This document shows, piece after piece, positions 49,392 to 63,247 of a stretch of 64,000 nucleotides of DNA. The position numbers were made by a program, and so were the translations under genes. The number at the start of each line of letters is the position of its first letter. Within the stretch, counting starts at the first letter, position 1. Under the pieces are notes generated by a model. That model had not been told where the DNA came from. It saw nothing but the letters and a program-made list of their open reading frames with translations, and did not search any database. Source of the DNA: Intrasporangiaceae bacterium URHB0013 (GTDB lineage: Bacteria > Actinomycetota > Actinomycetes > Actinomycetales > Dermatophilaceae); assembly GCA_000620545.1 (NCBI GenBank), contig JIBA01000004.1, positions 1 to 64,000 on the forward strand. The letters are read 5' to 3'.

Positions 49392-50105
49392 ATGCGCGAC
49401 CAGTTCCACGAGGACCTCGACACGATCTCCGACCAGCTCGTCGAGCTGACCCGGCTCGCGGGGTCGGCCATCTCACGGGCCACGACCGCCCTGCTCGACG
49501 CCGACGTCCACCTGGCCGAGTCCGTCATCGAGGCCGACCGCAAGCTCGACGACATCCGCATCGAGCTCGACGAGCGCTCGATCGACCTGCTCGCCCGGCA
49601 GCAGCCCGTGGCCACCGACCTGCGGATCGTCGTGACGGCGATGCACATGAGCTCGGACCTCGAGCGCATGGGTGACCTCGCCCGTCACGTGGCCAAGGTG
49701 GCCCGCCTGCGCACGCCCGACTCCGCGGTGCCGCCGGAGCTGCGCTCCCACATCCTGCAGATGGGCCAGGTCGCCGAAGCCATCGTGGCCAAGTGCGGGT
49801 CGATCATCGCGAGCAAGGACGTCGCCGCGGCCGTCGCGCTCGAGAAGGACGACGACGCGATGGACGACCTCCATCGTGAGCTCTTCGCGGCGCTGCTCGA
49901 CGAGAACACCTCGTGGTCCCGCAGCGCGATCCTCGACCTGACGCTCGTGGGCCGCTACTACGAGCGCTTCGCCGACCACGCCGTGTCGGTGGCCCGCCGC
50001 GTCATCTACCTCGTCACCGGTGAGTACGACCAGACGGTCGACCACGAGGACGAGGAGGACGAGGAGACCGTCGCGTCGCTCGAGAGCGGCCCCGCCACCG
50101 CCTGA
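49392..50105 (+). CDS. phoU: Phosphate signalling protein PhoU
   Basis: A 237-residue protein of two three-helix PhoU repeats (first about 1-110, second about 115-215), with HMSSDLERMGDLARHVAK and YYERFADHAVSVARR. It links the phosphate transporter to the SenX3-RegX3 kinase and lowers the response when phosphate is plentiful. The ATG follows CAGGAAGACC. An acidic tail of about 20 residues ends the protein. The repeat array begins ten bases after its stop. Confidence 0.95.
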   Translation: MRDQFHEDLDTISDQLVELTRLAGSAISRATTALLDADVHLAESVIEADRKLDDIRIELDERSIDLLARQQPVATDLRIVVTAMHMSSDLERMGDLARHVAKVARLRTPDSAVPPELRSHILQMGQVAEAIVAKCGSIIASKDVAAAVALEKDDDAMDDLHRELFAALLDENTSWSRSAILDLTLVGRYYERFADHAVSVARRVIYLVTGEYDQTVDHEDEEDEETVASLESGPATA

Positions 50106-50114
50106 CCCCCCACC

Positions 50115-50316
50115 GTCGAGAGGCCAAAGTTCGCGGCCTCGGCGCAGTCGAAAGGCCAAAGTTCGCGGCCTCCGCGCAGTCGAAAGGCCACAGTTTGGGG
50201 CCTCCGCGCAGTCGAAAGGCCACTCCCCGCGGCCTCGGCGCAGTCGAAGGGCCACTTCTCGCGACGAGAAGTGGCCCTTCGACTGCGGGTCAGGCCACGA
50301 ACTCTGGCCCTTCGAC
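50115..50316. repeat. 32-bp hairpin repeat array A at the phoU/gpmA convergent junction
   Basis: Four direct units begin at 50115, 50147, 50179 and 50211, each 32 bp starting GTCGA(G/A)AGGCC and ending GGCCTC(C/G)GCGCA. A fifth, at 50243, merges into a perfect palindrome (50243-50283). Beyond it an inverted copy spans 50293-50316. Most units contain an inverted core GAGGCC / GGCCTC or AGGCC / GGCCT around a 9-nt loop. The same unit forms array B at 62211-62402 in the opposite orientation. Confidence 0.9.
50243..50283. terminator. Perfect 19-bp palindrome inside array A
   Basis: Arms of 19 bp (50243-50261 and 50265-50283, beginning GTCGAAGGGCC) with a 3-nt loop CGA. It sits between convergent phoU and gpmA and should stop both transcripts. 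Confidence 0.7.
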
Positions 50317-50345
50317 GGTTAAGGAAACGCGGTAGGCGCGCTCGG

Positions 50346-51089
50346 TCAGCGGCCCTGGTTGGCGACGGCCTCGGCGGCGGCGCGAGCGGCCTCAGGGTCG
50401 AGGTAGCGCCCACCCCGCGTCACGGGACGGAACGCCTCGTCGAGCTCGTAGACGAGCGGCATACCCGTGGGGATGTTGAGGCCGGCGATGGCGTCGTCCG
50501 AGATGTCGTCGAGCGTCTTGACGAGAGCGCGCAGCGAGTTGCCGTGGGCGGCGACCATGACGGTCAGGCCGTCCGCGAGGTCCGTCTGGATCTCGTTCTC
50601 CCAGTACGGCATCAGCCGGGTCACGACGTCCTTGAGGCACTCCGTCGCGGGCATCGCGGCGCCCAGTCCGGCGTAGCGGGCATCGCCGTGCTGCGAGAAC
50701 TCGTCGTCCTCCGCGATGGGGGGCGGCGGCACGTCGTAGGAGCGGCGCCACTCCATGAACCTTTCCTCGCCGAACTGCTCGAGGGTCTGCTTCTTGTTCT
50801 TGCCCTGTAGCGCGCCGTAGTGGCGCTCGTTGAGGCGCCAGTCCCGCTTGACCGGGATCCAGTGACGGTCGGCGGCATCGAGCGAGAGGTTTGCGGTCGT
50901 GATGGCCCGACGCAGCAGCGACGTGTGCACGATGTCCGGCAGGATGCCGGCCTCCTTGAGCTGCTCGCCGGCGCGCAGGCCCTCGGCGCGGCCCTTGTCG
51001 GTGAGGTCGACGTCGACCCATCCGGTGAAGAGGTTCTTGGCGTTCCAGTCGCTTTCGCCATGACGGACGAGGACGAGCGTGTAGGTCAT
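50346..51089 (-). CDS. gpmA: 2,3-bisphosphoglycerate-dependent phosphoglycerate mutase
   Basis: A 247-residue glycolytic enzyme. The phosphohistidine motif is VRHGESDWN with His10, and later [10 protein letters not shown] has the second histidine. TRLMPYW and [12 protein letters not shown] are typical. ATG 51089 has TAGGCT six bases upstream, so it is probably leaderless. Its order next to ybjN and mshA follows M. tuberculosis gpm1. Confidence 0.95.
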
Positions 51090-51095
51090 GACGCC

Positions 51096-51101
51096 AGCCT
51101 A
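51096..51101 (-). promoter_or_regulatory. -10 box TAGGCT of leaderless gpmA
   Basis: On the minus strand TAGGCT, then GGCGTC, then ATG 51089. Confidence 0.6.
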
Positions 51102-51112
51102 TCGACGGCCGT

Positions 51113-51667
51113 TCACGCCTCCGAGCCGTCGTCCAGCAGGTGTCTGAAGGCGTCGAGGTTGCGGGTGGACTCGCCCCGCGACACCCGCCACGCCCACTCC
51201 TTGCGCATCGAGCCGAGGAAGCCGAGCGCGAGCAGCTCGTTGAACACGTCGTCACTGGCGGAGAGCACGATGCCGAACAGCTGGTCGAGGTGCTCGGGCT
51301 CGACCGCGACGGTCGGGACCTCACCGCGCAGGTAGACGTCGCCGTCCGTGTCGATGGCGTAGGCCACCCCCTGCAGGCGCAGGTTCTTGCGGAGCAAGGT
51401 GCGGTAGAAGGCCTCGTGGTTCTCGTCGGGGTTGCGGATGACGAAGGCGCTGAGACTCGTCGTCCGGTCACGCACGAGCACCGAGACCACCGTCTTGAGC
51501 TTCTTGTCGCCGGGCAGGGTGACGACGTACTCCCCCGGGCGCCCGCCGAGCTCCCAGTCCAGACCGACGGAGCCCAGGTATGCCGTCAGGCGTGCCTCCG
51601 CAGCCACGCCGGGGGACGTGGACGGCGAGCTCCACTCCCCGGGGGTGTCGTCCTGCAGGGCGCTCAC
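51113..51667 (-). CDS. YbjN-domain protein
   Basis: A 184-residue protein with the YbjN fold of type III secretion chaperone-like proteins ([40 protein letters not shown]). The GTG at 51667 overlaps the mshA stop by GTGA. The same pairing occurs in M. tuberculosis (Rv0486-Rv0487). A regulatory or chaperone role is possible; function unproven. Confidence 0.87.
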
Positions 51668-52977
51668 GGGATCACCGCGGTCGGGACTCCGACGAGGCTC
51701 TGGCCCTCGTCGATGGACGGCTCGGCCGTGCCGTTGGCCCGTTCGCGGATCGCCTGCCGGTAGACCTCGAGGAGACGGTCGGTGGTCGCGGCCCAGCCGA
51801 ACTGTGCGGCGTGCGCGACCGCGGCCGACCCCAGCTCCAGCCGACGGGAGTCGTCGCGCAGCAGGGACTCGACCGCGTCGGTCCAGTCGGGGGTCGCATG
51901 GCCGTCGACGAGGATGCCCGCGTCACCGACCGCGGTCGGCAGGCCGCCGACGTGCGCCGCGACGACGGGCGTGCCGCACGCCTGCGCCTCGATGGCGACG
52001 AGACCGAAGGACTCCGAGTGGCTGGGCACGAGGACGAGGTCGGCGGCGCGGTACCACTGCGCGAGCACCTGACGCTCGACCGGCTGCACGAAACGGACGA
52101 CGTCGTCGATGCCGAGCGTGCGCGCGAGCTCCTCGAGCTGGTGCGGCCGGGTGAGGCCGCTGCCGCTCGGCCCGCCGAGCACGGCGACGGTCAGGCGTTC
52201 GCCGCGCGACGGGTCGCGGCGAAGCAGCTCCCCGGCGACCCGGAGCAGGAGGTCGGGGGCCTTGAGCGGCTGGATCCGGCCGACGAAGAGAAGGAGCTCC
52301 CCGTGGATGGGCAGTCCCAGCGCGTGGCGGGCGGCGCCCCGGTCGCCGGGCGTGAAGGTCGAGAGGTCCACACCCGGAGGGACGACGGACACCTTGGCGG
52401 GCGGGGCGGCATACAGGTCGATGAGCTCATGGGCCTCGTCGTCGGTGTTGGCGATGAGGCGGTCGGCTGCCTCCACGACCTGGACCTCACCGATCTCGCG
52501 ACCCCGCGGTTCGGGCGGGTCGCCCTCGGCCAGGTGGAGGTTCTTCACCCGCGCCATCGTGTGCATCGTGTGCACGAGCGCGACGCGCCACCGGTCGGCC
52601 GCGAGCCAGCCCACCTGCCCCGAGAGCCAGTAGTGCGAGTGGACGAGGTCGTAGTGGTCCTCCGGAACCGAGAGCCCGGCCTGCATGATCCCGGCGGAGA
52701 AGGCGCACAGCTGGCCGGGGAGGTCCTCCTTCGCCAGACCCTCGTAAGGGCCAGCGGTCACGTGGCGCACGCGGACGCCCGGGACGGGGTCGACCTCGAT
52801 CGGTGTCGCACCGGTGGTGCGGCGGGTGAAGATGTCGACCTCGATACCGCGCCCGGCGAGCTCCTTGGCGGTCTCGGCGACATAGACGTTGAGGCCACCG
52901 GCGTCGCCGGTGCCCGGCTGCTCCAGGGGCGAGGTGTGCACGCTGATCATCGCCACACGTCGCGGATCATCCGTCAT
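51664..52977 (-). CDS. mshA: D-inositol-3-phosphate glycosyltransferase (mycothiol synthesis)
   Basis: A 437-residue GT4 enzyme that transfers N-acetylglucosamine to inositol 3-phosphate, first step of mycothiol synthesis. The N-lobe has [20 protein letters not shown] and [14 protein letters not shown]; the C-lobe has [38 protein letters not shown] 52977 follows AAGGGA. Co-transcribed with the YbjN gene. It fits the MscR gene at 41830 in showing a mycothiol-using cell. Confidence 0.94.
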
Positions 52978-53126
52978 CGGGATCCCTTCGTCCTGTCCGC
53001 TGCTCGTCGACACGGTCTTCCTCGACTCAACCACACGGGCGATCCGCTCTATTCCGACGTGGCGGGGTGACGCCGACAGGGCGGTGCGCGCACGGGAGGG
53101 TGGAGATCGCGGGGCAGCCGGCTGGC

Positions 53127-53132
53127 TAGGCT
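53127..53132 (+). promoter_or_regulatory. -10 box TAGGCT of a leaderless methyltransferase gene
   Basis: TAGGCT, then GCGGAG, then GTG 53139. Confidence 0.6.
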
Positions 53133-53138
53133 GCGGAG

Positions 53139-53939
53139 GTGTCCGCACGTCAGCGCCCCGTCGGCACGGTGACACGTGGGACGACGAACCCCAACCGGCT
53201 GCGCCGCTGCGACCGCTGGATCGCGGGGCCCCAGGCGTGGCGGCTGCGGCGCAGCCCGACTCCTCCGGTCGTCGTCGACCTCGGCTACGGCGCCTCGCCG
53301 ATCACCGCCGTCGAGCTGCACGACCGGCTCCGGCAGGTGCGCCGTGACGTCCAGGTCGTCGGCATCGAGATCGAGCCTGCCCGGGTGGCCGCCGGCAAGC
53401 CGCTGGAGCGCGACGGGCTCACCTTCCGGCTCGGCGGCTTCGAGGTGCCCCTCGACGACGGCGCGCGCCCCACCGTGGTGCGCGCCTTCAACGTGCTGCG
53501 GCAGTACGCCGAGGACGAGGTGCCCGAGGCCTGGGCCCACGTCCAGCAGCGACTGGGCCCGGACGGTCTGCTCGTCGACGGCACGTGCGACGAGGTCGGC
53601 CGACGTGCGTCATGGGTCGCAGTCGATGCCACGGGTCCCGTCAGCCTGACGATCTCGCTGCGGATGGGCGGTCTCGAACGTCCCTCGGAGGTGGCCGAGC
53701 GACTGCCCAAGTCGCTGATCCACCGCAACGTGCCGGGCGAACCGGTCCACGCCTTCCTCGTCGACCTCGACCGGGCCTGGGCGCGCAGCGCACCACAGTC
53801 GTCATGGGGGGCGCGCCAGCGCTTCCTGGCAGCCGTAGCCGAGGTCCGCGAGACGTGGCCACTGCTCGACGGGCCGTCGCGGTGGCGCCTCGGCGAGCTC
53901 ACGGTCGACTGGTCCGCGGTGGCACCCGCGGGCCACTGA
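53139..53939 (+). CDS. Class I SAM-dependent methyltransferase-like protein
   Basis: A 266-residue protein. The Rossmann motif [18 protein letters not shown] is at about 44-60, and the acidic second strand [11 protein letters not shown] follows. The rest ([20 protein letters not shown]) fits conserved actinobacterial methyltransferases of unknown substrate. Leaderless start at GTG 53139. It is divergent from mshA. Confidence 0.8.
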
Positions 53940-54030
53940 GGCCCTCGTCAAGACGGCACGGACCAGCGCGGCATCGGACACCGAGAGGTACTCACAGGAA
54001 GCGCAGCCACCCGACGACCCTCGGGCCCGC

Positions 54031-54036
54031 TAGCAT
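54031..54036 (+). promoter_or_regulatory. -10 box TAGCAT of a leaderless MEDS gene
   Basis: TAGCAT, then CGGCACC, then ATG 54044. Confidence 0.6.
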
Positions 54037-54043
54037 CGGCACC

Positions 54044-55033
54044 ATGTCGCAGGGCGGCATGACCGCGTGGGGGCGGGGTCATGGGGTGAGTTTCTACACA
54101 CTCGACAGTGAGGGCTTCAGGACTGTCGCGCGATTCGTCGCGGACGGGTGGGACCAGGACGAGTGCGTCGTGGTCGTGGCTACGGCTCCCCACCGAGCCG
54201 CCCTGGACACCTTCCTCCGCGACCTCGGGTATGACCCCGCCGCCCGGGCAGCGGCCGGTCGCTACCTGACCCTGGACGCACAGGAGACGCTGGGCGAGCT
54301 CCTCGTCGACGGCCACGTGGACTCTGATCGCTTCATGCGGGGGCTCAGCGAGGTCGTGGTCGAGGCCACCGAGGCCGGGAGGCCGGTCCGGGCCTTCGGC
54401 GAGATGGTCGCCCTGCTCTGGCAGAACGGCCAGATCGACGAGGCCATCGAGCTCGAGGGGCTCTGGGACTTGCTGCTGCGCGTCCATGACTTCTCGCTCC
54501 TGTGCGCCTATCCCGCGGGCCCCTCTGACGGTGTCGAGCTCGTGGACGTCCGGCGCGTGTGCGACCTGCACACCGACCTGCACACCGACCTGCTGCCCAT
54601 CGGCGCACCGAGTTCGACCGAGGGCGCCCGGCTGACCGTGGGTCACGCCTGCTCCCGCGTCTACCTGCCGACAGGGGCGTCGGTGCCCGCGGCCCGACAC
54701 TTCGTCGTCGACGTGCTGCGCGCGTGGGGCCAGGAGGCCTTGACGGCGGACGCCGCGCTCATCGCCTCCGAGCTCGCGACCAACGCCCTGACCCACGCCG
54801 CCTCCCCGTTCCGTGTCGTCGTCGACCGGCAACGAGATGGGCTCCGGATCGGTGTCGAGGACGCGGCCGAGGCCCCGCTCGAGCGACGCGCCCCCTCGAC
54901 GGACGACATCAGCGGACGAGGAGTCGACATCGTGGCGGCCCTGTCGGAGCGGTGGGGCTCCAGCCCCGTGCCCGGCGGCAAGGTGGTGTGGGCCGAGCTG
55001 CGCCTCGCCCCGGTCGGGTCACGCGCAGGCTGA
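54044..55033 (+). CDS. MEDS sensory domain fused to RsbW-like HATPase (anti-sigma kinase type)
   Basis: A 329-residue signalling protein. Residues about 12-160 match the MEDS/DcmR sensory domain (HGVSFYTLDSEGF, FVADGWDQDECVVVVATAPH, FGEMVALLWQNGQIDEAIEL). Residues about 205-322 are an HATPase of the RsbW group with N-box ELATNALTHA (243-252) and SGRGVDIV (290-297). A short HTDLHTDL duplication lies in the linker. It probably regulates a stress sigma factor through an unlinked anti-anti-sigma. No partner gene adjoins. Confidence 0.85.
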   Translation: MSQGGMTAWGRGHGVSFYTLDSEGFRTVARFVADGWDQDECVVVVATAPHRAALDTFLRDLGYDPAARAAAGRYLTLDAQETLGELLVDGHVDSDRFMRGLSEVVVEATEAGRPVRAFGEMVALLWQNGQIDEAIELEGLWDLLLRVHDFSLLCAYPAGPSDGVELVDVRRVCDLHTDLHTDLLPIGAPSSTEGARLTVGHACSRVYLPTGASVPAARHFVVDVLRAWGQEALTADAALIASELATNALTHAASPFRVVVDRQRDGLRIGVEDAAEAPLERRAPSTDDISGRGVDIVAALSERWGSSPVPGGKVVWAELRLAPVGSRAG

Positions 55034-55068
55034 GCCTCGGACCCCGCTCGTCCTACCGACGACGGACA

Positions 55069-55103
55069 GACGGATGCCGCCGGGGGGCCCGGCGGCATCC
55101 GTC
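55069..55103. terminator. Bidirectional hairpin between the MEDS and cupin genes
   Basis: Perfect 13-bp arms (GACGGATGCCGCC, 55069-55081, and 55091-55103) with a 9-nt G/C loop lie between convergent genes. Confidence 0.8.
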
Positions 55104-55128
55104 GTCTGTCGCGTGGTGCTGGGCGTGC

Positions 55129-55593
55129 TCAGCGGACGTAGTCGTCCTGGAGTCGCTCGATGTCGGACTCGTCGAAGTGGCCGAAGCCGACCTCGAGGAG
55201 GCGGCCCGGGCGCTCGCCGGAGTTGCCCATGCGGTGGATCGAGTTGCGCGGAACCCAGACCGTCTCGCCCGGCTGGGCGCTCCACGTGCGCTCACCCACG
55301 GTGACGTCGATCGGCACGTCTAGCACCTGCCACATCTCGCCGCGGTGGTCGTGACGCTGGAGGGAGAGCCGGTGACCGGGCTGCACCGTGATGATCTTGA
55401 CGGTGACCTGCTCGTTGGAGACGAACTGCTGGAACTCGCCCCACGGCCGCTCGGCGACGAAGATGTCCTCGGTCGGGTTGCGGTTGCCCAGGTCGTACTC
55501 GTCTGCGGTGTGGCTGGGGGACGAGACGTGCTGGTGCTGGTGGGCGTCGAGCTCGTGGTCGACGACGGCAGCAGCAGGCTGCTGGTCGGACAT
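55129..55593 (-). CDS. Cupin protein, mannose-6-phosphate isomerase type II-like
   Basis: A 154-residue single cupin (ERPWGEFQQFV; GHRLSLQRHDHRGEMWQVL; VGFGHFDESDIERLQDDYVR), the C-terminal domain of bifunctional GDP-mannose pyrophosphorylase/isomerases, here as a stand-alone protein. A His-rich, Gln/Asp-rich N-terminal segment of about 30 residues precedes it. Probably isomerises mannose 6-phosphate for glycan precursor synthesis. Confidence 0.87.
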   Translation of the reverse strand: MSDQQPAAAVVDHELDAHQHQHVSSPSHTADEYDLGNRNPTEDIFVAERPWGEFQQFVSNEQVTVKIITVQPGHRLSLQRHDHRGEMWQVLDVPIDVTVGERTWSAQPGETVWVPRNSIHRMGNSGERPGRLLEVGFGHFDESDIERLQDDYVR

Positions 55594-55668
55594 GGTTCTC
55601 CTATCGGTTGTGAGTGCACCAGTGTGCCGTACGCCGCGGGCCCGACGTCACGAGCAGAGGCTGGAGGG

Positions 55669-55983
55669 TCACCACCCGGAGCTGGAGCGGCCTCCGAGGC
55701 CACGGACCTGGCGCAACGCCGGTCGCACGTCCGCGAGGTAGACGGCGGACGCCACGAAGGCGACCAGCCCGAAGAGGCTGAGCGGGTTGAAGAGCGTGAC
55801 GAACCCGATCGCGAGGGCGACACCGAGCAGCACGAGCCAGAAGGTACGCGTGCGCTTGCTCGCGGCGACGTAGGCCTTCTCGGGGTGGCGCAGCGCGTCG
55901 ACGAATGCGAAGACCTCGCACCCGAGGGCGACGACGCCGAGCACGAGGAGGATGACGCTCTGGAACCCCGAGTACAGCTGCAT
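55669..55983 (-). CDS. DUF2516 family membrane protein
   Basis: A 104-residue protein with two to three helices (SVILLVLGVVALGCEVFAFVD and WLVLLGVALAIGFVTLF), a conserved actinobacterial DUF2516 protein. In M. tuberculosis a similar small membrane protein lies near hbhA. ATG 55983 has TACGCT six bases upstream. Function unknown. Confidence 0.8.
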   Translation of the reverse strand: MQLYSGFQSVILLVLGVVALGCEVFAFVDALRHPEKAYVAASKRTRTFWLVLLGVALAIGFVTLFNPLSLFGLVAFVASAVYLADVRPALRQVRGLGGRSSSGW

Positions 55984-55989
55984 GGATGA

Positions 55990-55995
55990 AGCGTA
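55990..55995 (-). promoter_or_regulatory. -10 box TACGCT of the leaderless DUF2516 gene
   Basis: On the minus strand TACGCT, then TCATCC, then ATG 55983. Confidence 0.55.
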
Positions 55996-56069
55996 ACCCG
56001 GCGACAGGCGCCCGACCCCTCCCAGCAGGCTCCCAGAGTCGCGCTCGGTGGCGGCTCGCCCCGTCTCGG

Positions 56070-56495
56070 TCAGGCGTCGACGACGAGGGTGAAGGGACCG
56101 TCGTTGACCAGTGCGACCTGCATCATGGCGCCGAAGCGGCCCTGCTCGACCTCGATGCCCCTCCGCCGCAGTGCGTCGATGAGGGCGTCGACCAGCGGCT
56201 CGGCCACCGGTCCCGGTGCGGCTGCGCTCCACGAGGGACGACGGCCCTTGCGGGTGTCGGCGTGGAGCGTGAACTGGCTGACGACGAGAACGGGCGCCCC
56301 GGCGTCGCTGAGGCTCTGCTCGTCGCGCAGGATCCGCAGCTCGGCGATCTTGCGTGCCATCCGCTCGACCTGCTCGGGCCCGTCGTCGTGGGTGACACCG
56401 ACGAGCGCCAGCAGCCCGGGCCGGTCGATGGCGCCGACGACCTCGCCGTCCACCTCCACCCGAGCGCTCGTGACGCGCTGGAGCACTGCCCTCAT
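56070..56495 (-). CDS. dtd: D-aminoacyl-tRNA deacylase
   Basis: A 141-residue proofreading enzyme that removes D-amino acids from tRNA. It begins [17 protein letters not shown] and has the [16 protein letters not shown] motif, and ends [10 protein letters not shown] with the cis GP motif. It lies 33 bases after the asparaginase gene and is probably co-transcribed. Confidence 0.94.
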
Positions 56496-56528
56496 GTCGC
56501 CATCACCGCGCCGAGGGGCTGGCCGGTC

Positions 56529-57524
56529 TCAGACACCGACGGCGACGACGGAACCGACGGGCTGTCCGTGACCGAGCACCGGCTGGTGCTCGAGCACGTC
56601 GAGCACGTCGTCACTGCCGACCCCGATGCGGCGCAGCACGGCAGCCAGCAGCACACTGCGGGCGCGGGACGAGCCGTCGGCCACCTTGACCGCGATGCCG
56701 CGCCCGTCGGCCAGACCCACCGCATAGACCGCCTCGGCGCCGTCCTTGGCGACCGAGCCGTCGACGCCGCGGATCAGGGCCGTGACGTCACGGTGCGTGC
56801 CCCCGAGGTACTCGGGGTGGTCGCGGATGGCCGTGACGATCTTGGCCTCCGGACCTTCCGTCGCTGCCGAGAGACGGCCGAAGGAGTGCGCGAGGGCGCG
56901 AAGCGGCACGGCGTGGATGGGAGCCCCGCAGCCGTCGACGGCCACGGCGCTCGGTTCGACACCGGTGAGCTCGCGCACGGTCTCGGCGATGACGACCTGG
57001 AGCGGGTGTGCGGGGTCGCGGTAGGTGTCGAGGTCCCAGCCGTTGACGACGCAGGTCGCGAGCATCGAGGCGTGCTTGCCCGAGCAGTTCTGCACGACCG
57101 ACTGCCGGGGACGGCCACTCGCGATCCATCCGATGCGGGCGGCCTCGTCGTAGGGGTAGTCCGGGGTGTTCTGCAGGTCTGCCTCGGTCAGGCCCGCGCC
57201 GGCGAGGATCTCGCGAGCTGCCTCGACGTGGAAGTCCTCGCCGGAGTGGCTGGCACACGCCAGGGCCAGGAGGCGGCCGTCGGTCGCGAGGCCGCTGCGG
57301 ACCATGGCCAGCGCCTGGAGCGGCTTGCTCGAGCTGCGGGGGAACACGGCTCCGCTCGAGTCACCGACCTCCAGCTCGACCGAGCCGTCGGGAGCCGTGA
57401 CGACGGCCGTGCCGTGGTGCACCGACTCGACGAATCCGGCCCGCACGACGTGCGCGACGATCGGGGCGTCGGCGAGCGCCGTGCTGACGGAGGTGGCGGG
57501 CGACGGGATGGGGTGATCGGACAC
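56529..57524 (-). CDS. L-asparaginase, plant/rhizobial II type (asparaginase II)
   Basis: A 331-residue enzyme resembling the rhizobial/AnsA-II asparaginase group: HHGTAVVTAPDGSVELEVG near the N-terminus, FPRSSSKPLQALAMV, ACASHSGEDFHVEAAREIL, QNCSGKHASMLATC and DGCGAPIHAVPL. It hydrolyses asparagine to aspartate and ammonia. GTG 57524 has CATACT seven bases upstream, a leaderless start. First gene of the pair with dtd. Confidence 0.88.
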   Translation of the reverse strand: MSDHPIPSPATSVSTALADAPIVAHVVRAGFVESVHHGTAVVTAPDGSVELEVGDSSGAVFPRSSSKPLQALAMVRSGLATDGRLLALACASHSGEDFHVEAAREILAGAGLTEADLQNTPDYPYDEAARIGWIASGRPRQSVVQNCSGKHASMLATCVVNGWDLDTYRDPAHPLQVVIAETVRELTGVEPSAVAVDGCGAPIHAVPLRALAHSFGRLSAATEGPEAKIVTAIRDHPEYLGGTHRDVTALIRGVDGSVAKDGAEAVYAVGLADGRGIAVKVADGSSRARSVLLAAVLRRIGVGSDDVLDVLEHQPVLGHGQPVGSVVAVGV

Positions 57525-57531
57525 GCCCAGA

Positions 57532-57537
57532 AGTATG
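57532..57537 (-). promoter_or_regulatory. -10 box CATACT of the leaderless asparaginase gene
   Basis: On the minus strand CATACT, then TCTGGGC, then GTG 57524. Confidence 0.5.
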
Positions 57538-57550
57538 CCGGAGCGACGCA

Positions 57551-57588
57551 GCAGGGCCGCCACCCCGGGTGTGAGGTGGCGGCCCTGC
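57551..57588 (-). terminator. Strong hairpin terminator after the HbhA-like gene
   Basis: Perfect 14-bp arms (GCAGGGCCGCCACC, 57551-57564, and 57575-57588) with a 10-nt loop lie 44 bases downstream of the stop, on the minus strand. Confidence 0.85.
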
Positions 57589-57631
57589 CGTGCCTCTCGG
57601 CACCGGCGCTGCCGGCTGGACGGCGTGAGCG

Positions 57632-58648
57632 TCAGCTCGTGGTCGTGGAGGTCGTGGAGGTCGTGGAGCTCGTCGTGCTCTTGGTGGCCGGCGCCTTCTT
57701 CGTGGTCCTCTTGGCGGGCGTGGCCTTCTTCGCGGCCGTCTTCGTCGTGCTCTTCGTCGACGCGGCAGTCTTCCGGGTCGTCTTCTTGGCCGGGGCCGAC
57801 GTGCTCGCACCCTTGGCCGCGGCCTCGGCGCTCGTGGCGGAGCTGCGGGCCGCGACCTTGCGGGTCGTGGTGGCCTCGACCTGGTTGGCCTTGCGCGTGG
57901 CGGCCGCCTTCTGGGCCGCCGACTTGCGGATCGCCGTCTCGTGCGCGGCGGTGCGCGTGGGCGGGACCGGCGCGGCGGCAGAACCGACGGCGTCGACCGA
58001 CGTGGCGACCTGCGAGCCGAGCTTCGAGGCGTCCTTGACCACGACGTCCTTGACGCTCTGGGCGACCTTCTCGCCCTCGCTCAGCGCGGCCCCGGCGACG
58101 CGGCGGCCACGAGTCACCGTGGCGGTGCCGCGCTCGGCGAGGTCGTAGGCCGTGCGCTCACCCTGCGCACGGAGGTCGGTGACGACCTTCTCGCCGCGGG
58201 CGGCGGCCGCGTCGTACTGGTCCTTGGCGTTGCTGGCCATGACGAGGCCCTCGTTGAGGACGCGGGCCGGGAGGTCCTGGGCCCGCGTGACGAAGCGCTC
58301 GGCATACGTCGTCGCGAGCTTCTGCAGCTCGGTGGTGCGGCCCTGGAGCTCGGCGATGCGCTTCTGGAGGTCCTTCTGCAGCTGGTCCGCCTCCTTCTTG
58401 GCGCCCTGGCGCAGGTCGACGCGCGTGGCCTGCTTGCGCGCGACCTCGAGCTGCTCGCCGGCCGTGCGGACGGTGTCGATCGCGATGTTGGCCGCGCCGA
58501 CGACGGCATAGAATGGGGTCGGGTCGACCTGGACCTCGGGCATACGGCCCTCGACCTGGACCAGCTGACCGCGCAGGTCGGCAGCGGCGGCCTCGGCCTG
58601 CTTCTGGGCGTCCTTGACGGCCTGGGTGATCTTCTTGCTGAGTGCCAT
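57632..58648 (-). CDS. Heparin-binding hemagglutinin (HbhA)-like protein
   Basis: A 338-residue protein. The N-terminal two thirds are a helical, coiled-coil region (LQKDLQKRIAELQGRTTELQ; DLPARVLNEGLVMASNAK). The C-terminal third is a Lys/Ala/Thr-rich tail (TTRKTAASTKSTTKTAA) ending in a run of Thr and Ser, as in mycobacterial HbhA, whose Lys-rich tail binds heparin. It follows an XRE regulator by one base, the order known for Rv0474-hbhA in M. tuberculosis. Confidence 0.8.
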   Translation of the reverse strand: MALSKKITQAVKDAQKQAEAAAADLRGQLVQVEGRMPEVQVDPTPFYAVVGAANIAIDTVRTAGEQLEVARKQATRVDLRQGAKKEADQLQKDLQKRIAELQGRTTELQKLATTYAERFVTRAQDLPARVLNEGLVMASNAKDQYDAAAARGEKVVTDLRAQGERTAYDLAERGTATVTRGRRVAGAALSEGEKVAQSVKDVVVKDASKLGSQVATSVDAVGSAAAPVPPTRTAAHETAIRKSAAQKAAATRKANQVEATTTRKVAARSSATSAEAAAKGASTSAPAKKTTRKTAASTKSTTKTAAKKATPAKRTTKKAPATKSTTSSTTSTTSTTTS

Positions 58649-58649
58649 C

Positions 58650-59117
58650 TCAGTTCTCCTTCTCTTTGAGCTCGGGGGTCGCTGCAGCGGGCGTGCTGCG
58701 CGACGGGCGCCGGCGGGCGGGCGCGGCCGGCGGCGGGTCCGGCGTGGTCACGGGAGTCGTCTCGTCAACTCCGACGAACGACAGGTAGATGTCGACGAGC
58801 ACCGCGCGCTGCCGGTCGGTGAGGACCGGGTCGACGGCGATGGCGGAGAGGACGTCGGCGACAGTGGCAGGGTCGCCGTCGGCGACCCGCTCGTCGAGGA
58901 TTCCGGCCCGGACGTAGAGCGACTCGGCCGAGACCTGCAGCCCCTTGGCGATCTGCTGCAGGATCTCGGCGCTCGGGCGCTTGAGCCCTCGCTCGATCTG
59001 CGACAGGTAGGGGTTGGAGACTCCGGCCATCTCGGCGAGCTGCCGCAGCGACAGCTGGGCGCTCTCGCGCTGCTCGCGCAAGTAGGCCCCGAGGTCGGGA
59101 AGCGGAAGCTTGCTCAT
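58650..59117 (-). CDS. XRE-family transcriptional regulator upstream of hbhA
   Basis: A 155-residue protein. The Cro/CI HTH is at about residues 8-65 (AYLREQRESAQLSLRQLAEM; GVSNPYLSQIERGLKRPSAEI). The second half is a helical dimer region and a Pro-rich tail. ATG 59117 follows GGAG. Coupled to the HbhA-like gene, and it may autoregulate through TGCT/AGCA dyads before its start. Confidence 0.9.
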   Translation of the reverse strand: MSKLPLPDLGAYLREQRESAQLSLRQLAEMAGVSNPYLSQIERGLKRPSAEILQQIAKGLQVSAESLYVRAGILDERVADGDPATVADVLSAIAVDPVLTDRQRAVLVDIYLSFVGVDETTPVTTPDPPPAAPARRRPSRSTPAAATPELKEKEN

Positions 59118-59198
59118 GGCTCCATTGTGCTAACTACAGCAAGCAGAATGCAAACTCTGGGCAGCGTGAGCCGCCCCACACCCTGACTGACCCCCGTT

Positions 59199-59298
59199 TC
59201 GCGCGCTCCAGCGACGAGCGCGCGATGTCGGATCCGAGCGCGCCGAACTTCACGCGCTTGAGGGCAGGATCGCGCGCTCCAAGCACGAGCGCGCGATC
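59199..59298. repeat. Two related palindromes (TCGCGCGCTC-type) between BKACE and XRE genes
   Basis: A 10-bp-arm hairpin at 59199-59225 (loop CAGCGAC) and a 12-bp-arm one at 59268-59298 (loop CAAGCAC) share the arm TCGCGCGCTC. They lie downstream of the BKACE gene on the minus strand and may act as terminators; they also recall the two-hairpin design of BIME/REP elements. Confidence 0.7.
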
Positions 59299-59346
59299 CG
59301 TCGGCGGGAGCAGCGGTCCCGGACGGATCAGTGAGGGGGCCCTCGG

Positions 59347-60201
59347 TCAGCGGGTGCGACGGTCCTTGATGGAGAGGGCCTCGCGAGCCTGCGTCGTCGT
59401 CATCGGCGGTCGCTGCATGAGCGTCGCGATCTCGGCGGCTCGGACGACGAGCTCGCTGTTGTGCGCGACCGGCCGGCCCTTGGCATACATGAGGTTGTCC
59501 TCCATGCCCACGCGGAGGTGGCCGCCCGCCGAGAGGGCAGCGGCGACGATCGGCAGGTGCGCGCGGCCGATGCCGGTGGCCGACCAGCTCGTGACCTCCG
59601 GCGGCAGCATGGCAACGCCGGCGAGCAACGCCTGCGGCGTGCCTGGCATCGCACCCGGCACCCCGGTGACGAAGTCGACGTGAACCTTGCCTCCGTAGGG
59701 CAGGCCGCACTCGTCGATGAGCCGGCGCAGAGCGTGCACGTGGCCGAGCTCGAACAGCTCGAACTCGGGCACGACCTCGCGTTCCTGCGCCTGGCGGTAC
59801 AGGTCGACCATGAAACCCCAGGGGTTGAGGAAGACGCCGTCGCCGAAGTTGGTCGTGCCGCACGTCAGTGAGCAGGAGTCGGGGTCGGCGTCGAGGACCG
59901 TGAGGCGCTTCTCGAGCGGATCGGTGATCGAGCCGCCGGTCGAGAGCTGGACGATGAGGTCGGTGGCCTCGCGAACGCCCTCGACGGCCTCCTTGAGGAA
60001 CGCCGGCTCGAGCGTCGGCTGGTGCTCCCGGTCGCGCACGTGGATGTGGATGAGGGCGGCTCCCGCTCGCTCACACGCGACGGCGGTCTCGACGAGCTCC
60101 TCCGGCGTGGTCGGCAGGGCCGGGACGTGCGACTTCGCGGTCTCGGCACCTGTAGGCGCGACGGTGATCAGGGTGCTCGCGGCGGTGCGTGCGGTGCTCA
60201 T
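59347..60201 (-). CDS. BKACE-family beta-keto acid cleavage enzyme (DUF849)
   Basis: A 284-residue TIM-barrel enzyme that cleaves beta-keto acids with acetyl-CoA, as in 3-keto-5-aminohexanoate cleavage enzyme. The zinc pair His52/His54 is in IHIHVRD. Also GGSITDPLEKR, VGMEDNLMYAKGR and the ELV.RAAEIA end are typical. The start is ATG 60201, with ATG 60210 in frame. The substrate cannot be told from sequence. Confidence 0.88.
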   Translation of the reverse strand: MSTARTAASTLITVAPTGAETAKSHVPALPTTPEELVETAVACERAGAALIHIHVRDREHQPTLEPAFLKEAVEGVREATDLIVQLSTGGSITDPLEKRLTVLDADPDSCSLTCGTTNFGDGVFLNPWGFMVDLYRQAQEREVVPEFELFELGHVHALRRLIDECGLPYGGKVHVDFVTGVPGAMPGTPQALLAGVAMLPPEVTSWSATGIGRAHLPIVAAALSAGGHLRVGMEDNLMYAKGRPVAHNSELVVRAAEIATLMQRPPMTTTQAREALSIKDRRTR

Positions 60202-60237
60202 GCCGCACATCCTGCCAGCGCCGCGGACGGCCGTCGG

Positions 60238-61296
60238 TCAGGGGGCGACGATCGTCGTCTGCGCGGCCGAGAGGTCCTCGACGAGCAGCTCGAGGGTCGG
60301 GTCCGTGTTGCGCTTGATGACCGCCAGGGCGATGGGCCCGTCGACGTGGTGGCGACCGACGGAGGTCACGCGCCCGACGACGCGATCGCCCGCCCGGACC
60401 TCGCTGCCCTGTGCGGGCAGGACGTGGCCCGAGCCGTCGAGGTGGAGGAAGACGAGACGGCGCGGAGGCCTACCGAGGTTGTGGACCCGCGCCACGGTTT
60501 CCTGCCCCCGGTAGCAGCCCTTGTGGAGGTGCACGGCGGTGCGCAGCCAGTCGAGCTCGTGAACGATGGTGCGGTGGTCGGTCTCCGCCCCGAGACGCGG
60601 GCGCCACGCGGCGATGCGCAACGCCTCGGCCGCCCAGAGCCCGGCCATCGGCCGATCTCCCACTGTCACAAGGAGATCGGCGCGTGGCACGAGGACCTGC
60701 CGCCACGCTCGCTCGGTGCCGGGATGGTCGTCAACCGGGCCGTATGCGGTCGTGTCCCCTACGAGGTCAGGCCACGGGTCGCGCCAGGCGAGCGGTTCCC
60801 CCTCGACCGATTCGCTGGCGTGTGGCTCGCCGAGCACTGCCCAGTCGTCGGTGACGAGGGCGACCTCGACGCGCAGCATGAAACGCATCTTGTCGAGCCA
60901 CTCCACGAGCGCCGGACCTGCGCCGGCCTCGGTCGTGATCCACGTCGTCTCGCCGTCATCGACGAGGTGCAGCGAGTGCTCGACGTGCCCCTTGGGACTG
61001 AGGATGAGGGCCTCGCGCGACTGGCGCTGCTCGAGGGCGAGCAGGTGCTGGGTCGTGAGCGAGTGCAACCAGCTGAGCCGGTCCGACCCGGTGACGGTGA
61101 CGACGTCCCGGTGCGAGAGGTCGACGACCGCGAGGCCTTCCTCGAGCAGGCGCTGCTCGCGCATGGGGTCGCCGTAGTGGAGCGCGACACCGACCTCGAG
61201 GCCCTCCCCCGCCACGGCACCCGGGCGCGAGAGTAGGGGGCTCGTGACCGGTCGGGTGGGCAGCTCCAGGTCGCTCATGTTGGGTGGAACGCTCAC
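60238..61296 (-). CDS. ygfZ: YgfZ-type folate-binding protein
   Basis: A protein of about 350 residues of the GcvT-like fold, involved in maintenance of iron-sulfur enzymes. The signature KGCYRGQETVAR, with its conserved cysteine, is present near the C-terminal third. Several starts are possible: ATG 61311 overlapping the FABP stop (ATGA), GTG 61296 with GAGGG, and ATG 61278; I favour GTG 61296. The GGCATACGCC word at 61297-61306 lies in the start region. Downstream of the FABP gene and probably co-transcribed. Confidence 0.85.
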   Translation of the reverse strand: MSVPPNMSDLELPTRPVTSPLLSRPGAVAGEGLEVGVALHYGDPMREQRLLEEGLAVVDLSHRDVVTVTGSDRLSWLHSLTTQHLLALEQRQSREALILSPKGHVEHSLHLVDDGETTWITTEAGAGPALVEWLDKMRFMLRVEVALVTDDWAVLGEPHASESVEGEPLAWRDPWPDLVGDTTAYGPVDDHPGTERAWRQVLVPRADLLVTVGDRPMAGLWAAEALRIAAWRPRLGAETDHRTIVHELDWLRTAVHLHKGCYRGQETVARVHNLGRPPRRLVFLHLDGSGHVLPAQGSEVRAGDRVVGRVTSVGRHHVDGPIALAVIKRNTDPTLELLVEDLSAAQTTIVAP

Positions 61297-61307
61297 GGCA
61301 TACGCCC

Positions 61308-61805
61308 TCATTCCACGCGCTTGAGAGTGGCCGACACGTGGCTCTGGAGCTCCTGGCCCACGGCGGCCATGTCCATGACCCACAACAGGTTGGACTCGAC
61401 GAGGCCGTACATCCGCGTCGCCGCGTTGTACTCCTTCGCGCCCGGTGAGCGCAGGACGCCGTCGGTCTTGAGCTGGACCCTGGCCGGCTCGATCCTGCCG
61501 TAGTAGAGCTCGAGTATGCCGGTGGGGTGCGCGAGGAGCAGCTCGACCTCGCCGTTCTCGAGCGGCCGCCAGAAGCCGGACTCGACGGCGGCGGGGCGCA
61601 CCTTGGCGCCGTTCTCGGAGTCGAGGATCCAGGCGCGGCTCTCCCACTTGAGGAAGCCGCGTCCGTCGTGCGTCACCTCGACCTCCTGGCCGAAGTGCGC
61701 GGACTCTATCGTCGGGTAGCCGACGACCCCGGCACCCTCCCAGCGCCCGATGAGCCAGGCGAGGGGTCGCAGCGGCTCCGGGATGTCCTGGTCGAGGTTG
61801 AACAT
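61308..61805 (-). CDS. FABP/nitrobindin-like protein (DUF1794)
   Basis: A 165-residue beta-barrel protein related to nitrobindin and to M. tuberculosis Rv0813c. Motifs LIGRWEGAGVVGYPTIE, HFGQEVEVTHDGRGFLKWESRAW and VESGFWRPLENGEVELLLAH fit the family, whose members bind heme or fatty ligands. ATG 61805 has TACGAT seven bases upstream. Its promoter shares bases with the divergent DsrE gene. Confidence 0.88.
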   Translation of the reverse strand: MFNLDQDIPEPLRPLAWLIGRWEGAGVVGYPTIESAHFGQEVEVTHDGRGFLKWESRAWILDSENGAKVRPAAVESGFWRPLENGEVELLLAHPTGILELYYGRIEPARVQLKTDGVLRSPGAKEYNAATRMYGLVESNLLWVMDMAAVGQELQSHVSATLKRVE

Positions 61806-61812
61806 GCGCTCG

Positions 61813-61822
61813 ATCGTAGCCT
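61813..61822. promoter_or_regulatory. Overlapping divergent -10 boxes (TACGAT minus, TAGCCT plus)
   Basis: The 23-bp gap between divergent ATGs (61805 and 61829) holds TACGAT on the minus strand (61813-61818) and TAGCCT on the plus strand (61817-61822), sharing two base pairs. Both genes therefore look leaderless and compete for one RNA polymerase site. Confidence 0.65.
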
Positions 61823-61828
61823 GATCCC

Positions 61829-62200
61829 ATGGACACCCCCGCGCGCTCACTCGTCGTCAAGGTCACTGCCGGAACCGAAGCGCCAGAACGCCTCTCGCAG
61901 GCCTTCACGGTCGCCGCCACCGCCGTCGCGAGCGGCGTCGACGTCTCCCTCTGGCTCACGGGCGACTCGACGTGGATGGCTGTCCCGGGGCGGGCGGAGG
62001 GGTTCGAGCTGCCGCATGCGGCACCCATCGTCGAGCTGCGGGACGCGGTGCTCGCCGGGGGTCGCCTCACCGTCTGCACCCAGTGCGCGGCCCGGCGTGA
62101 GCTGACGCAGGACCAGCTCGTCGACGGTGCGGTGATCAAGGGGGCGGCGGTCTTCGTCGAGGAGGTCATGGCACCCGGCACCCAGGCCCTCGTCTACTGA
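61829..62200 (+). CDS. DsrE-family small protein
   Basis: A 123-residue protein of the DsrE/DsrF-like fold (VVKVTAGTEAPERLSQAFTV; VDVSLWLTGDSTWMAV; GRLTVCTQCAARRELTQDQL). The single CTQC pair might take part in sulfur relay, but the family is often of unknown function. Leaderless start at 61829. The 32-bp repeat array B begins ten bases after the stop. Confidence 0.82.
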   Translation: MDTPARSLVVKVTAGTEAPERLSQAFTVAATAVASGVDVSLWLTGDSTWMAVPGRAEGFELPHAAPIVELRDAVLAGGRLTVCTQCAARRELTQDQLVDGAVIKGAAVFVEEVMAPGTQALVY

Positions 62201-62210
62201 GGCCGGCGGC

Positions 62211-62402
62211 GTCGCTGCGGCGAACGGTGGCCACTCGATGTCAGGGCGGCAACGAAACGTGGCCTCTCGACGGTGACGAGGCCGCGGACTTTGGCCCCTC
62301 GACGGTGACGAGGCCGCGAACTTTGGCCTCTCGACGGTGACGAGGCCGCGAACTTTGGCCTCTCGACGGTGACGAGGCCGCGAACTTTGGCCTCTCGACG
62401 GT
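62211..62402. repeat. 32-bp hairpin repeat array B at the DsrE/membrane-protein convergent junction
   Basis: Six units of 32 bp start at 62211, 62243, 62275, 62307, 62339 and 62371. The last four read GACGAGGCCGCG then (A/G)ACTTTGGCC(T/C)C then TCGACGGT. The first two are progressively degenerate but in phase. Each late unit has the core GAGGCC / GGCCTC with GCGAACTTT loop. Its reverse complement is the unit of array A at 50115-50316. Both arrays lie between convergent genes. Confidence 0.9.
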
Positions 62403-62419
62403 TGGGTGGGGGTGGGGGG

Positions 62420-63247
62420 TCAGGTGAGGACGGAGAAGAGGTTCACGACCGCACCGATGACGAGCACCGATCCGGCTCCGGCGCCGGCCTGGCCCCGGAC
62501 CGTCAGCATCGCCGGCTGCAGCGCGAGGACCCGGCGGAAGGACCACGACGCCGTGCCGACCGCGGCGCCGATGCCGAGCGCCTCCAGTGTCCCGACCTCG
62601 GCACCGCGTGACGCGACGACGACGGCCACGAGCACCGCGGCCGCGAGCGCGACGAACCCGAGGAACGGCGTCGCGGCCCGAACCCCTGCGAGCAGGTCGG
62701 TGACGACGGCCGCCCCCACGGCTGCCATGGCGACGACCGCGACGGCCTGACCCCGGTCGCTGTCGGCGGCGACGACGGCCGTCGTGCCGGAGGCGATGAC
62801 GACGAGGCCGCCGAACGACGAGAGCAGCGTGAGGACGAGACCCTCCCGGCCGGCACGCCGGACGAGCTGGCCGCAGAAGGCGAGCAGGATGCCGAACGCG
62901 ACGGCCGCCGGCACCCACAGGAGGTCCTGGCGCAGGGCGCTCAGCACGATCGCCACGGACGCGACGGCGAGCACGACGGTGGTGGCCGCCGGAGTGGAGG
63001 AGCCGGTGAGCGGCGGCCACCCCCAGGCCACCACGAGGGCGAGCCCGAGGGTCACGCCGAGCGCGGCGGCATACCCCGTGCCGTTGGCGACGAGGAGCGC
63101 TGCGGCGGCGACGAGTGTCGCGGCGATGCTGACCCACCGGATGCGGTCAGCGCCCGCGGGCGACAGGGGGAGGTGGAGCGACCCGGCGGCAGAGGCATCC
63201 GGACCGGGCTCGCGGATGGCCGCGTTGTCCTCAGGCACGGGGGCCAT
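62420..63247 (-). CDS. Hypothetical multi-pass membrane protein
   Basis: A 275-residue protein with about eight hydrophobic segments (VSIAATLVAAAALLVANG; VVLAVASVAIVLSAL; VFIL-like and ALAAAVLVAVVVAS), very Ala/Val-rich. No family recognised. The ATG at 63247 is six bases after the MoaD stop, so they are probably co-transcribed. Confidence 0.75.
   Translation of the reverse strand: MAPVPEDNAAIREPGPDASAAGSLHLPLSPAGADRIRWVSIAATLVAAAALLVANGTGYAAALGVTLGLALVVAWGWPPLTGSSTPAATTVVLAVASVAIVLSALRQDLLWVPAAVAFGILLAFCGQLVRRAGREGLVLTLLSSFGGLVVIASGTTAVVAADSDRGQAVAVVAMAAVGAAVVTDLLAGVRAATPFLGFVALAAAVLVAVVVASRGAEVGTLEALGIGAAVGTASWSFRRVLALQPAMLTVRGQAGAGAGSVLVIGAVVNLFSVLT

Follow-up and report, generated by a model that had tools for sequence, protein, structure and literature searches.

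How convergent transcription ends in high-GC Actinobacteria without clear U-tract terminators is, to our knowledge, poorly settled. The window analysed here, 64,000 nucleotides of Intrasporangiaceae bacterium URHB0013, a soil organism, raises this question at two junctions between convergent genes that each carry a tandem repeat, and we asked what kind of element the repeat is and what it may do there. An earlier note on this DNA had described two arrays of opposite orientation with a 32-bp period at convergent junctions, and both the box positions and Tandem Repeats Finder bear this out (period 32 for both arrays; scores 196 and 272, the top two of 44 rows). The 12-mer GTCGARWGGCCA occurs eight times in the 64-kb window, compared with 0.07 copies expected from shuffles. 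Array A lies between phoU (PF01895; 49392-50105, + strand) and a histidine-phosphatase-superfamily gene (PF00300, phosphoglycerate-mutase-like; 50346-51089, - strand). Read from the sequence, a leader rich in C and poor in G (50106-50114, + strand) leads from the phoU stop to four 32-bp units (50115-50242, + strand; boxes starting at 50115, 50147, 50179 and 50211). A fifth + box (50243) and the first - box (50272-50283) belong to a central perfect palindrome, and a single outer unit follows on the - strand (50287-50316; box 50305-50316, 33 bp from the preceding - box). The described flip of array A around a perfect palindrome is real, but the 19 bp given for it is the arm length: the palindrome spans 41 bp (50243-50283), or 47 bp with 22-bp arms and a 3-nt centre if the flanking GCA/TGC is included (50240-50286). 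Sequence, folding and covariation all mark this feature, and the RNA fold of the whole array A gap has z = -7.7 relative to shuffles. Array B (62228-62399, - strand) consists of six - boxes, from 62228-62239 through those starting at 62260, 62292, 62324 and 62356 to 62388-62399, with + units absent, and its RNA fold gives z = -0.91. It lies between a DsrE-like gene (PF02635; 61829-62200, + strand) and a 275-aa gene without a Pfam match (62420-63247, - strand; present in 8/8 congeners searched), to whose stop codon a C-rich leader extends when read on the - strand (62400-62419). Its units do decay, although the direction has to be corrected: decay starts at the outer right end, close to the neighbouring gene, and progresses in the direction of the DsrE gene.

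The host genome holds 35 clusters with 231 scored units; the clusters were found by likeness to array A and the units counted with a matrix trained on those clusters, so divergent clusters were missed. Each unit opens with the box GTCGARNGGCCA, and 207 of the 228 units in runs have it without a mismatch. In the unit logo (167 distinct host units, selected by a GTC-containing box) the start reads C 94%, G 98%, T 100% and C 100%, an invariance that is partly one of choice because only boxes with ≤1 mismatch were admitted. The box-to-box distance is usually 32 bp and stays so where the spacers have diverged: of neighbouring boxes whose spacers are ≤55% identical (boxes with ≤2 mismatches), 55 host pairs are 32 bp apart, compared with 6 at 31 bp, 4 at 33 bp and the remaining distances seen once or twice each, and this excess could partly reflect slow indels. 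In three relatives the same test finds this 32-bp distance in 32, 15 and 16 pairs. Inward, tail-to-tail clusters predominate (24/35), one is outward and ten have a single orientation; there are 57 same-orientation runs of at least two units, the longest with eight head-to-tail. The 20-nt spacers are 0.72 identical within a run and 0.52 between runs, so that the lack of spacer diversity claimed earlier holds within runs and not between them. With a repeat of only 12 bp and spacers 72% alike within a run, a CRISPR array is ruled out. Left and right arrays at one locus (0.54) are barely more alike than unrelated runs in the host (0.52); each side therefore evolves alone. This also opposes a giant hairpin formed from left and right arrays, for which we found no support: the identity of left and right outer units is just slightly higher within minimal elements (0.468) than between them (0.428; permutation p 0.013, n = 41). 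Across the genome, 33 of 37 runs have a lower score for the innermost than for the outermost unit, 2 a higher one and 2 the same, a trend that the chosen register tends to produce. Taking the second-innermost unit instead, 21 of 32 runs give a lower score, 8 a higher one and 3 the same (p = 0.024). In the 10 nt that directly precede 160 distinct runs of at least two boxes from several genomes, C makes up 59% and G 9%; for positions 3-23 nt past 88 other convergent stops the figures are 41% and 33%.

The GAGGCC/GGCCTC stem of the earlier note is present in intact units but is not a conserved structure: the left GGCC is nearly fixed and the right GGCC drifts (the units were selected by their box, which favours the left arm). 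Single-orientation arrays fold weakly, with mean RNA z of -0.97 in sense and -1.24 in antisense and 8 of 50 below -2 in sense. With this drift and weak folding we abandoned the view of the tandem unit as a hairpin and retain it for the central palindrome, where the hairpin signal sits. A palindrome of ~41 bp joins both sides in about half of the inward clusters, and its arms co-vary across species. In 41 homologous palindromes, 95.4% of 779 cells are paired (slid controls, 33-43%), and 104 cells have changed on both sides, compared with 37.8 in shuffles. Such covariation can also come from templated repair of quasi-palindromes. The palindrome is not universal: 13 host box pairs are 29 bp apart and other centres scatter, and three of the 12 centres displayed (L040, L041 and L054) pair poorly.

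Convergent junctions harbour 22 of the 35 host clusters, whereas of the 232 background gaps ≥30 bp long 48 are convergent (Fisher p = 9e-7). Genes came from a simple caller, and the test used the labels of its first setting, entered by hand, with that of L036 uncertain (both neighbours lack a Pfam match); the background is approximate because the caller covers 80% of the 400-kb stretch used. Under a second setting 16/35 clusters are convergent and 7 overlap a predicted ORF. The 400-kb stretch, which was unselected, has 18 exact boxes, every one in a convergent gap, with its genes and its co-directional and divergent gaps free of them; 2 of its 58 convergent junctions account for all 18. Under the first setting 13/35 clusters are not convergent, examples being one that separates a nuoH-like from a nuoI-like gene and one that separates hutH from hutU. 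One array (L042) lies at a divergent junction, and some single-orientation arrays are antisense to the gene end they abut (L114 and L127 in G113, L135 in G094); these cases rule out a strict rule that units always follow the direction of the upstream gene. The site between convergent genes is a tendency, no rule, and the bias could alternatively reflect tolerance of insertions. Array-bracketed genes were considered as a mobile part and dismissed: they comprise an alpha/beta hydrolase gene, a YjbR-like one (below the Pfam cut-off) and one without a match, and with such differing Pfam results there is no shared gene.

Both flanks are common with a host element in 35 of 48 fetched clusters of three relatives (18/25, 12/15 and 5/8), where a flank was counted as shared if found ≤3 kb away on its side, whatever the orientation, and the gap itself is not always the same. 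For G094 and G067 the fetched stretches (twelve and eight) are a part of the whole, and two further sets that overlap these relatives ('named', 15/26; 'fam', 5/7) were kept out of the total. Four junctions were compared base by base. Next to the DsrE gene, the six units of the host correspond to 4, 2, 2, 1 and 1 - boxes in relatives; the spacing departs from 32 bp in G122 (31 bp) and G142 (30 bp), and the single-box forms of G094 and G136 lack a box hairpin. The remaining relatives have a degenerate box or another hairpin, the latter standing in the element's place, by eye, in G113 and G148. At the phoU junction four relatives carry a box-ended hairpin with a different core, two of eight (G094 and G148) have a ~1-kb insertion between phoU and gpm, and G130 has a degenerate copy. 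The nuo synteny is intact without the element in G113, G130 and G094, which makes it dispensable there, and a remnant single unit persists in G136 (G148 was left out of this comparison). Between maoC and thrS, G142 and G130, the two relatives whose gap is short and intact, lack the element; G113 and G148 have a ~1.2-kb insertion, and thrS was not found in the fetched maoC stretch of four relatives. A strict tandem pattern matched only the host among 297 genomes of the order (a sample without a congener), and a looser unit pattern matched 9 of 149 family genomes, seven of them of the host genus, host included; on these counts we rejected a broad distribution. Named matches to one palindrome pattern were Terrabacter, Humibacillus, Terracoccus, Intrasporangium flavum and one MAG. 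The earlier note held that a repeat confined to two places, or equally common in genes, would make a functional or mobile element unlikely. This is not what we find, since the repeat is dispersed, intergenic, multi-copy, enriched in convergent gaps and present in relatives.

The sequences themselves show conserved boxes at 32-bp spacing, units that face inward, covarying palindrome arms, conserved place, gain and loss of units and a bias to 3′ ends and convergent gaps. The explanation that we tentatively prefer, giving it rather less than an even chance, is a transcription-end or insulator module in which a palindromic hairpin would be combined with a phased array for a putative binding protein; the same guarded estimate covers the family as a lineage-specific dispersed intergenic element of Terrabacter and near relatives, largely inherited vertically and placed at gene ends. 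The module would start with the C-rich leader, followed by 12-bp boxes every ~32 bp (~three helical turns), which at many sites face both a palindrome and a mirrored copy. The boxes may serve as phased duplex sites for a sequence-specific protein, with the palindrome folding into a hairpin in the nascent transcript, or into a cruciform; acting jointly, the two would halt or delay RNA polymerase arriving from either side, which would insulate the convergent genes. Extra units, which may arise by tandem duplication within one side, would raise occupancy. Exact boxes, fixed spacing despite diverged spacers and weak tandem RNA folding are features of protein sites and count for the module, as does the interchange with other hairpins at the DsrE and phoU junctions. 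So do the convergent bias, the strandedness of the leader, the covarying palindrome, the flanks shared with relatives and the separate evolution of the two sides. Against it stand the absence of a U-tract terminator (a G+C stem followed by a T run) in the 701 bp around each array, the lower count of 16 convergent clusters under the second setting, the divergent L042, the arrays antisense to the gene end they abut, the palindromes that are missing or pair poorly, the departures from 32 bp next to the DsrE gene and the relatives with intact nuo synteny that do without the element. The nuoH/nuoI and hutH/hutU sites also count against it, since full termination should harm the downstream genes; any effect within operons would have to be partial. 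A purely RNA-level, REP-like 3′-UTR element, whose transcript hairpins would end transcription or protect mRNA and whose boxes would be stem sequence, fits the palindrome covariation, the strong fold of array A, and the stop-proximal site with its C-rich leader on the box strand. Hairpin clusters past stops have, moreover, been proposed as terminators, apparently with no need for poly A/U trails (PMC8355165). We nevertheless consider it unlikely, as neither array B nor the 50 single-orientation runs are specially structured, only the right stem arm drifts, and single-box forms lack the box hairpin at the DsrE junction.

A functionless selfish or relict repeat (MITE/REP-like), tolerated where no promoter is disrupted, would account for the copy number, for the nuo and maoC-thrS gaps, which have the element in some species and not in others, and for sites in promoterless convergent gaps as well as inside operons and in one divergent gap. 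It appears unlikely given the neighbourhoods shared with relatives and the conservation of boxes and spacing over diverged spacers. Further, the host has no Y1_Tnp gene, phage and plasmid collections gave no match at E 1e-5 (so that we rejected such an origin), and the nuo remnant in G136 and the scattered absences on the tree suit deletion better than insertion. A DNA-level chromosome organiser without a transcription-end role, such as a loading site for a nucleoid protein, gyrase or condensin, might use convergent gaps because positive supercoils gather there. Helical phasing, the facing layout whatever the gene direction and the non-convergent sites agree with it; the strand-asymmetric leader, the other hairpins in orthologous gaps and the absence at nuo in several species with no other long element instead do not, and we regard it as improbable. 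By analogy with the TTF-I/Sal-box terminators of mammalian rDNA, which are oriented tandem short boxes at transcription ends, the arrays might be a polar roadblock: a lineage-specific DNA-binding protein on phased, oriented boxes would stop converging RNA polymerases, as a bacterial counterpart whose array length is tuned by gene-proximal duplication. We judge this distinctly unlikely as a whole, and the likeness to the rDNA system is one of analogy only. Should a protein bind the boxes, it might represent a novel type of transcription-end factor. The family offers ~35 natural test sites in one genome, and since orthologous sites range from 0 to 6 units, they could show directly how dose and orientation affect termination.

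Among known elements, the earlier note had likened the repeat to REP/BIME. In the host it does occur in many dispersed copies, in intergenic DNA close to the 3′ ends of genes, and it shares with REP/BIME (the GTAG superfamily with RAYT) short repeats mostly downstream of genes or convergent, in facing layouts. It differs in head-to-tail runs, mostly of fixed period, in single units that are no stable palindromes, in a logo without the GTAG tag, and in the RAYT partner suggested by the note: a profile search for PF01797 (Y1_Tnp/RAYT) found none in the host genome (the control was positive in 5/14 genomes). Judged from sequence, the element is REP/BIME-like in place and unlike in architecture. 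CGTC-tagged REPs have stems of 8-9 bp and loops of 4-5, with head-to-head dimers predominant, tail-to-tail rare and head-to-tail negligible, according to excerpts of the paper (PMC3733652), whose main text does not contain the word Actinobacteria but mentions untagged REP-like sequences in M. tuberculosis. In the same excerpts they resemble our units, which open with C-GTC, in lying intergenically near 3′ ends without a dedicated transposase; in the host, however, head-to-tail runs meet tail-to-tail and the 8-9 bp stem with 4-5 nt loop is not conserved. Bidirectional intrinsic terminators and hairpin clusters, proposed as terminators downstream of stops, likewise place a palindrome between convergent stops that is usable from both strands, and a section heading calls poly A/U trails unnecessary (PMC8355165, in part). 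Here there is no U tract, the outer box is conserved across loci around a variable core, and phased tandem half-units precede the palindrome. Rfam gave no match at the gathering threshold (window positions 49800-62700), and titles and abstract openings of mostly open-access literature contained no description of this repeat. In Neisseria and Haemophilus, uptake-sequence terminators pair a short conserved box inversely at convergent ends; the host box differs in being clustered in ~35 places and not spread through genes.

Arrays A (50115-50316) and B (62228-62399) both occupy convergent gaps. Array A is flanked by phoU and a histidine-phosphatase gene, array B by a DsrE-like gene and a gene that has no Pfam match and is present in 8/8 congeners searched. 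Eight copies of the 12-mer GTCGARWGGCCA are found across the window (0.07 expected), bearing out the earlier note's claim of one repeat at two convergent junctions. With array A as BLAST query, 78 matches were obtained in the 4.57 Mb URHB0013 genome. The genome-wide search proposed in that note showed the repeat to be multi-copy: a position weight matrix, applied to 28 fetched stretches and the window, located 231 units in 35 clusters. These clusters face inward (>>> <<<) in 24 cases and outward in one; ten have a single orientation, one of them being a lone unit. In 400 kb of contig C9 taken without selection, the matrix located 18 units, all in convergent gaps (2/58 of these), and the reversed matrix found none there. 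The exact 12-mer likewise had 18 copies in 400 kb of C9, all in convergent gaps and none in genes, co-directional gaps or divergent gaps, so the possibility that the repeat is equally common inside genes finds no support. Only 2/35 clusters fall within the first 400 kb of C9.

By our own gene calls, 22 clusters lie in convergent, 12 in co-directional and one in divergent gaps, against 48, 129 and 55 among background gaps that measure 30 bp or more (Fisher p = 9e-7); at a different caller setting 16 are convergent and seven overlap a predicted ORF. The convergent placement proposed earlier is thus a bias, with co-directional and divergent exceptions. Several exceptions are confirmed by Pfam: the hutH-hutU gap, the gap in a nuoH-like/Fer4 pair, the gap between a MaoC gene and the class-II tRNA synthetase gene that follows it, and a divergent gap between ligase and hydrolase genes. 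Across 160 distinct runs, some few of which sit within broken arrays, the 10 nt leading up to the initial box are 59% C and 9% G, compared with 41% C and 33% G after 88 other convergent stops. At three loci (L042, L050 and L058) a single gene, encoding an alpha/beta hydrolase, a 281-aa protein without a Pfam match or a YjbR-like protein, stands between two inward-facing arrays; for the first two proteins this arrangement is retained in relatives.

Each unit begins with the box GTCGARNGGCCA, exact in 207/228 run units. In the logo of 167 distinct units from this genome, picked by a box with at most one mismatch, a weaker AASTTYGCG follows 3' of the box and then a variable tail. Neighbouring boxes on the same strand are 32 bp apart in 169 pairs, 31 in 10 and 33 in seven, other distances being seen once or twice each. 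The preference persists among pairs whose 20-nt spacers share 55% identity or less (55, six and four pairs at 32, 31 and 33 bp; three relatives have 32, 15 and 16 such pairs at the 32-bp distance, with ≤2 at 31 and ≤1 at 33), and a distance of 32 bp corresponds to about three helical turns. The DsrE gap provides exceptions, with 31 bp in relative G122 and 30 bp in G142. Spacer identity is 72% within a run, 52% between runs and 54% between left and right sides of one locus, which indicates that each side duplicates on its own. The innermost unit scores below the outermost in 33/37 runs, and the second-innermost does so in 21/32 (higher in eight, equal in three).

Where the two sides meet, the commonest distance between box starts is 29 bp (13 cases in this genome), giving a span of 41 bp; the remaining centres scatter. 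Among 12 such sequences of this genome inspected, L040, L041 and L054 pair poorly in the core. With these included, 95.4% of cells were paired in an alignment of 41 distinct palindromes from several species (33-43% in slid controls). Nine pairs carried double changes, and compensatory cells numbered 104 vs 37.8 in shuffles. The alignment shows a symmetry that persists while its sequence changes; an RNA hairpin or a DNA cruciform may underlie it, maintained by selection or by templated repair. RNA folding gave z-scores of -7.7 for the array A gap and -0.91 for the array B gap. Fifty single-orientation runs from two genomes averaged -0.97 in sense (8/50 below -2) and -1.24 in antisense. The hairpin nature first ascribed to the repeat is thus supported for the palindrome and the array A gap but not for single-orientation runs. 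A search for U-tract terminators at arrays A and B found none.

Named palindrome matches came from Terrabacter, Humibacillus, Terracoccus, Intrasporangium flavum and one MAG, and facing box pairs from 8/9 genus genomes searched, URHB0013 included. Both flanks match those of a URHB0013 element in 18/25 fetched clusters of G113, 12/15 of G094 and 5/8 of G067; chance would give a few per cent, roughly estimated from ~58 convergent gaps per 400 kb. In the phoU-gpm gap, G067 carries unit-palindrome-unit; G113, G122, G136 and G142 a hairpin ended by boxes, some mutated, around a different core; G130 a degenerate hairpin; and G094 and G148 a ~1-kb insertion. Minus-strand boxes at the DsrE gap number six in URHB0013, four in G067, two each in G122 and G142 and one each in G094 and G136; G130 is degenerate, and G113 and G148 have, as judged by eye, different hairpins. 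The nuo gap contains the element in URHB0013, G122, G067 and G142 (some boxes mutated), a single unit in G136 and no element in G113, G130 or G094. Since this pattern is scattered across both main groups of an unrooted eight-genome tree and G136 retains a remnant, it fits an old element that may have been lost several times, the alternative being repeated gain. At maoC-thrS, among the genomes compared, only URHB0013 has the element; in G142 and G130 the gap is short and lacks it, an insertion of 1.2 kb is present in G113 and G148, and thrS was not found in the fetched maoC stretch of the remaining relatives.

Judged from sequence, the box has the character of a protein site, its sequence and spacing being retained and structure not, and the palindrome that of a paired element. 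The exchange of the element for different hairpins at corresponding gene ends, together with the convergent bias, suggests that it helps to end or insulate transcription; because some copies are internal to operons, any such effect cannot be absolute. Our preferred but tentative explanation is that putative protein-site boxes and the paired palindrome would act jointly at transcription ends. Less probable, in this order and by small margins, are a dispersed repeat without function, an element acting purely at the RNA level and a chromosome-organising site. REPs, whether CGTC-tagged or RAYT-linked, share its placement and dispersal. However, it has neither the stem nor the dimer type of CGTC-REPs, and a search of the URHB0013 genome for the transposase of RAYT-linked REPs, as suggested previously, gave none. 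The REP/BIME-like label of the earlier note is therefore kept for the kind, of which the repeat is a variant and not a member. We found no published description of it, judged by titles and abstract openings.

Other sequence features were noted. Hairpins with TCGAGGTGATY ends lie in convergent gaps at C9:215883-215956 and in the DsrE gap of G113 (L185), where relatives carry a box array. A second, sister family of arrays has the box GTCGAGTG[GC]TCA and periods of ~41-42, 26 and 53 bp, and occurs at C9:8088-8230, 13622-14002, 85115-85240, 87018-87280 and 291007-291460, one array containing an assembly gap; its 36 box copies lie in convergent gaps (14, mixed orientation), co-directional gaps (nine, 9/9 in sense) and called genes (13). 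The 9-mer CGTATGCCG, also present in the window, has 112 copies in C9:1-400000 (L153-L172), 82 of them in called genes. There, in the context xCG-TAY-GCC-G, the rare TAT codon is used in 59/65 cases, against 55/178 other Tyr codons preceding GCC and 91/2026 in remaining contexts. The 9-mer resembles a word under selection throughout the genome, perhaps akin to an uptake sequence or a signal, and its strand distribution around oriC shows no clear bias. Four parS-like GTTTCACGTGAAAC sites and a gap that by eye resembles oriC were seen at C9:145214-148372 and 181307-181535.
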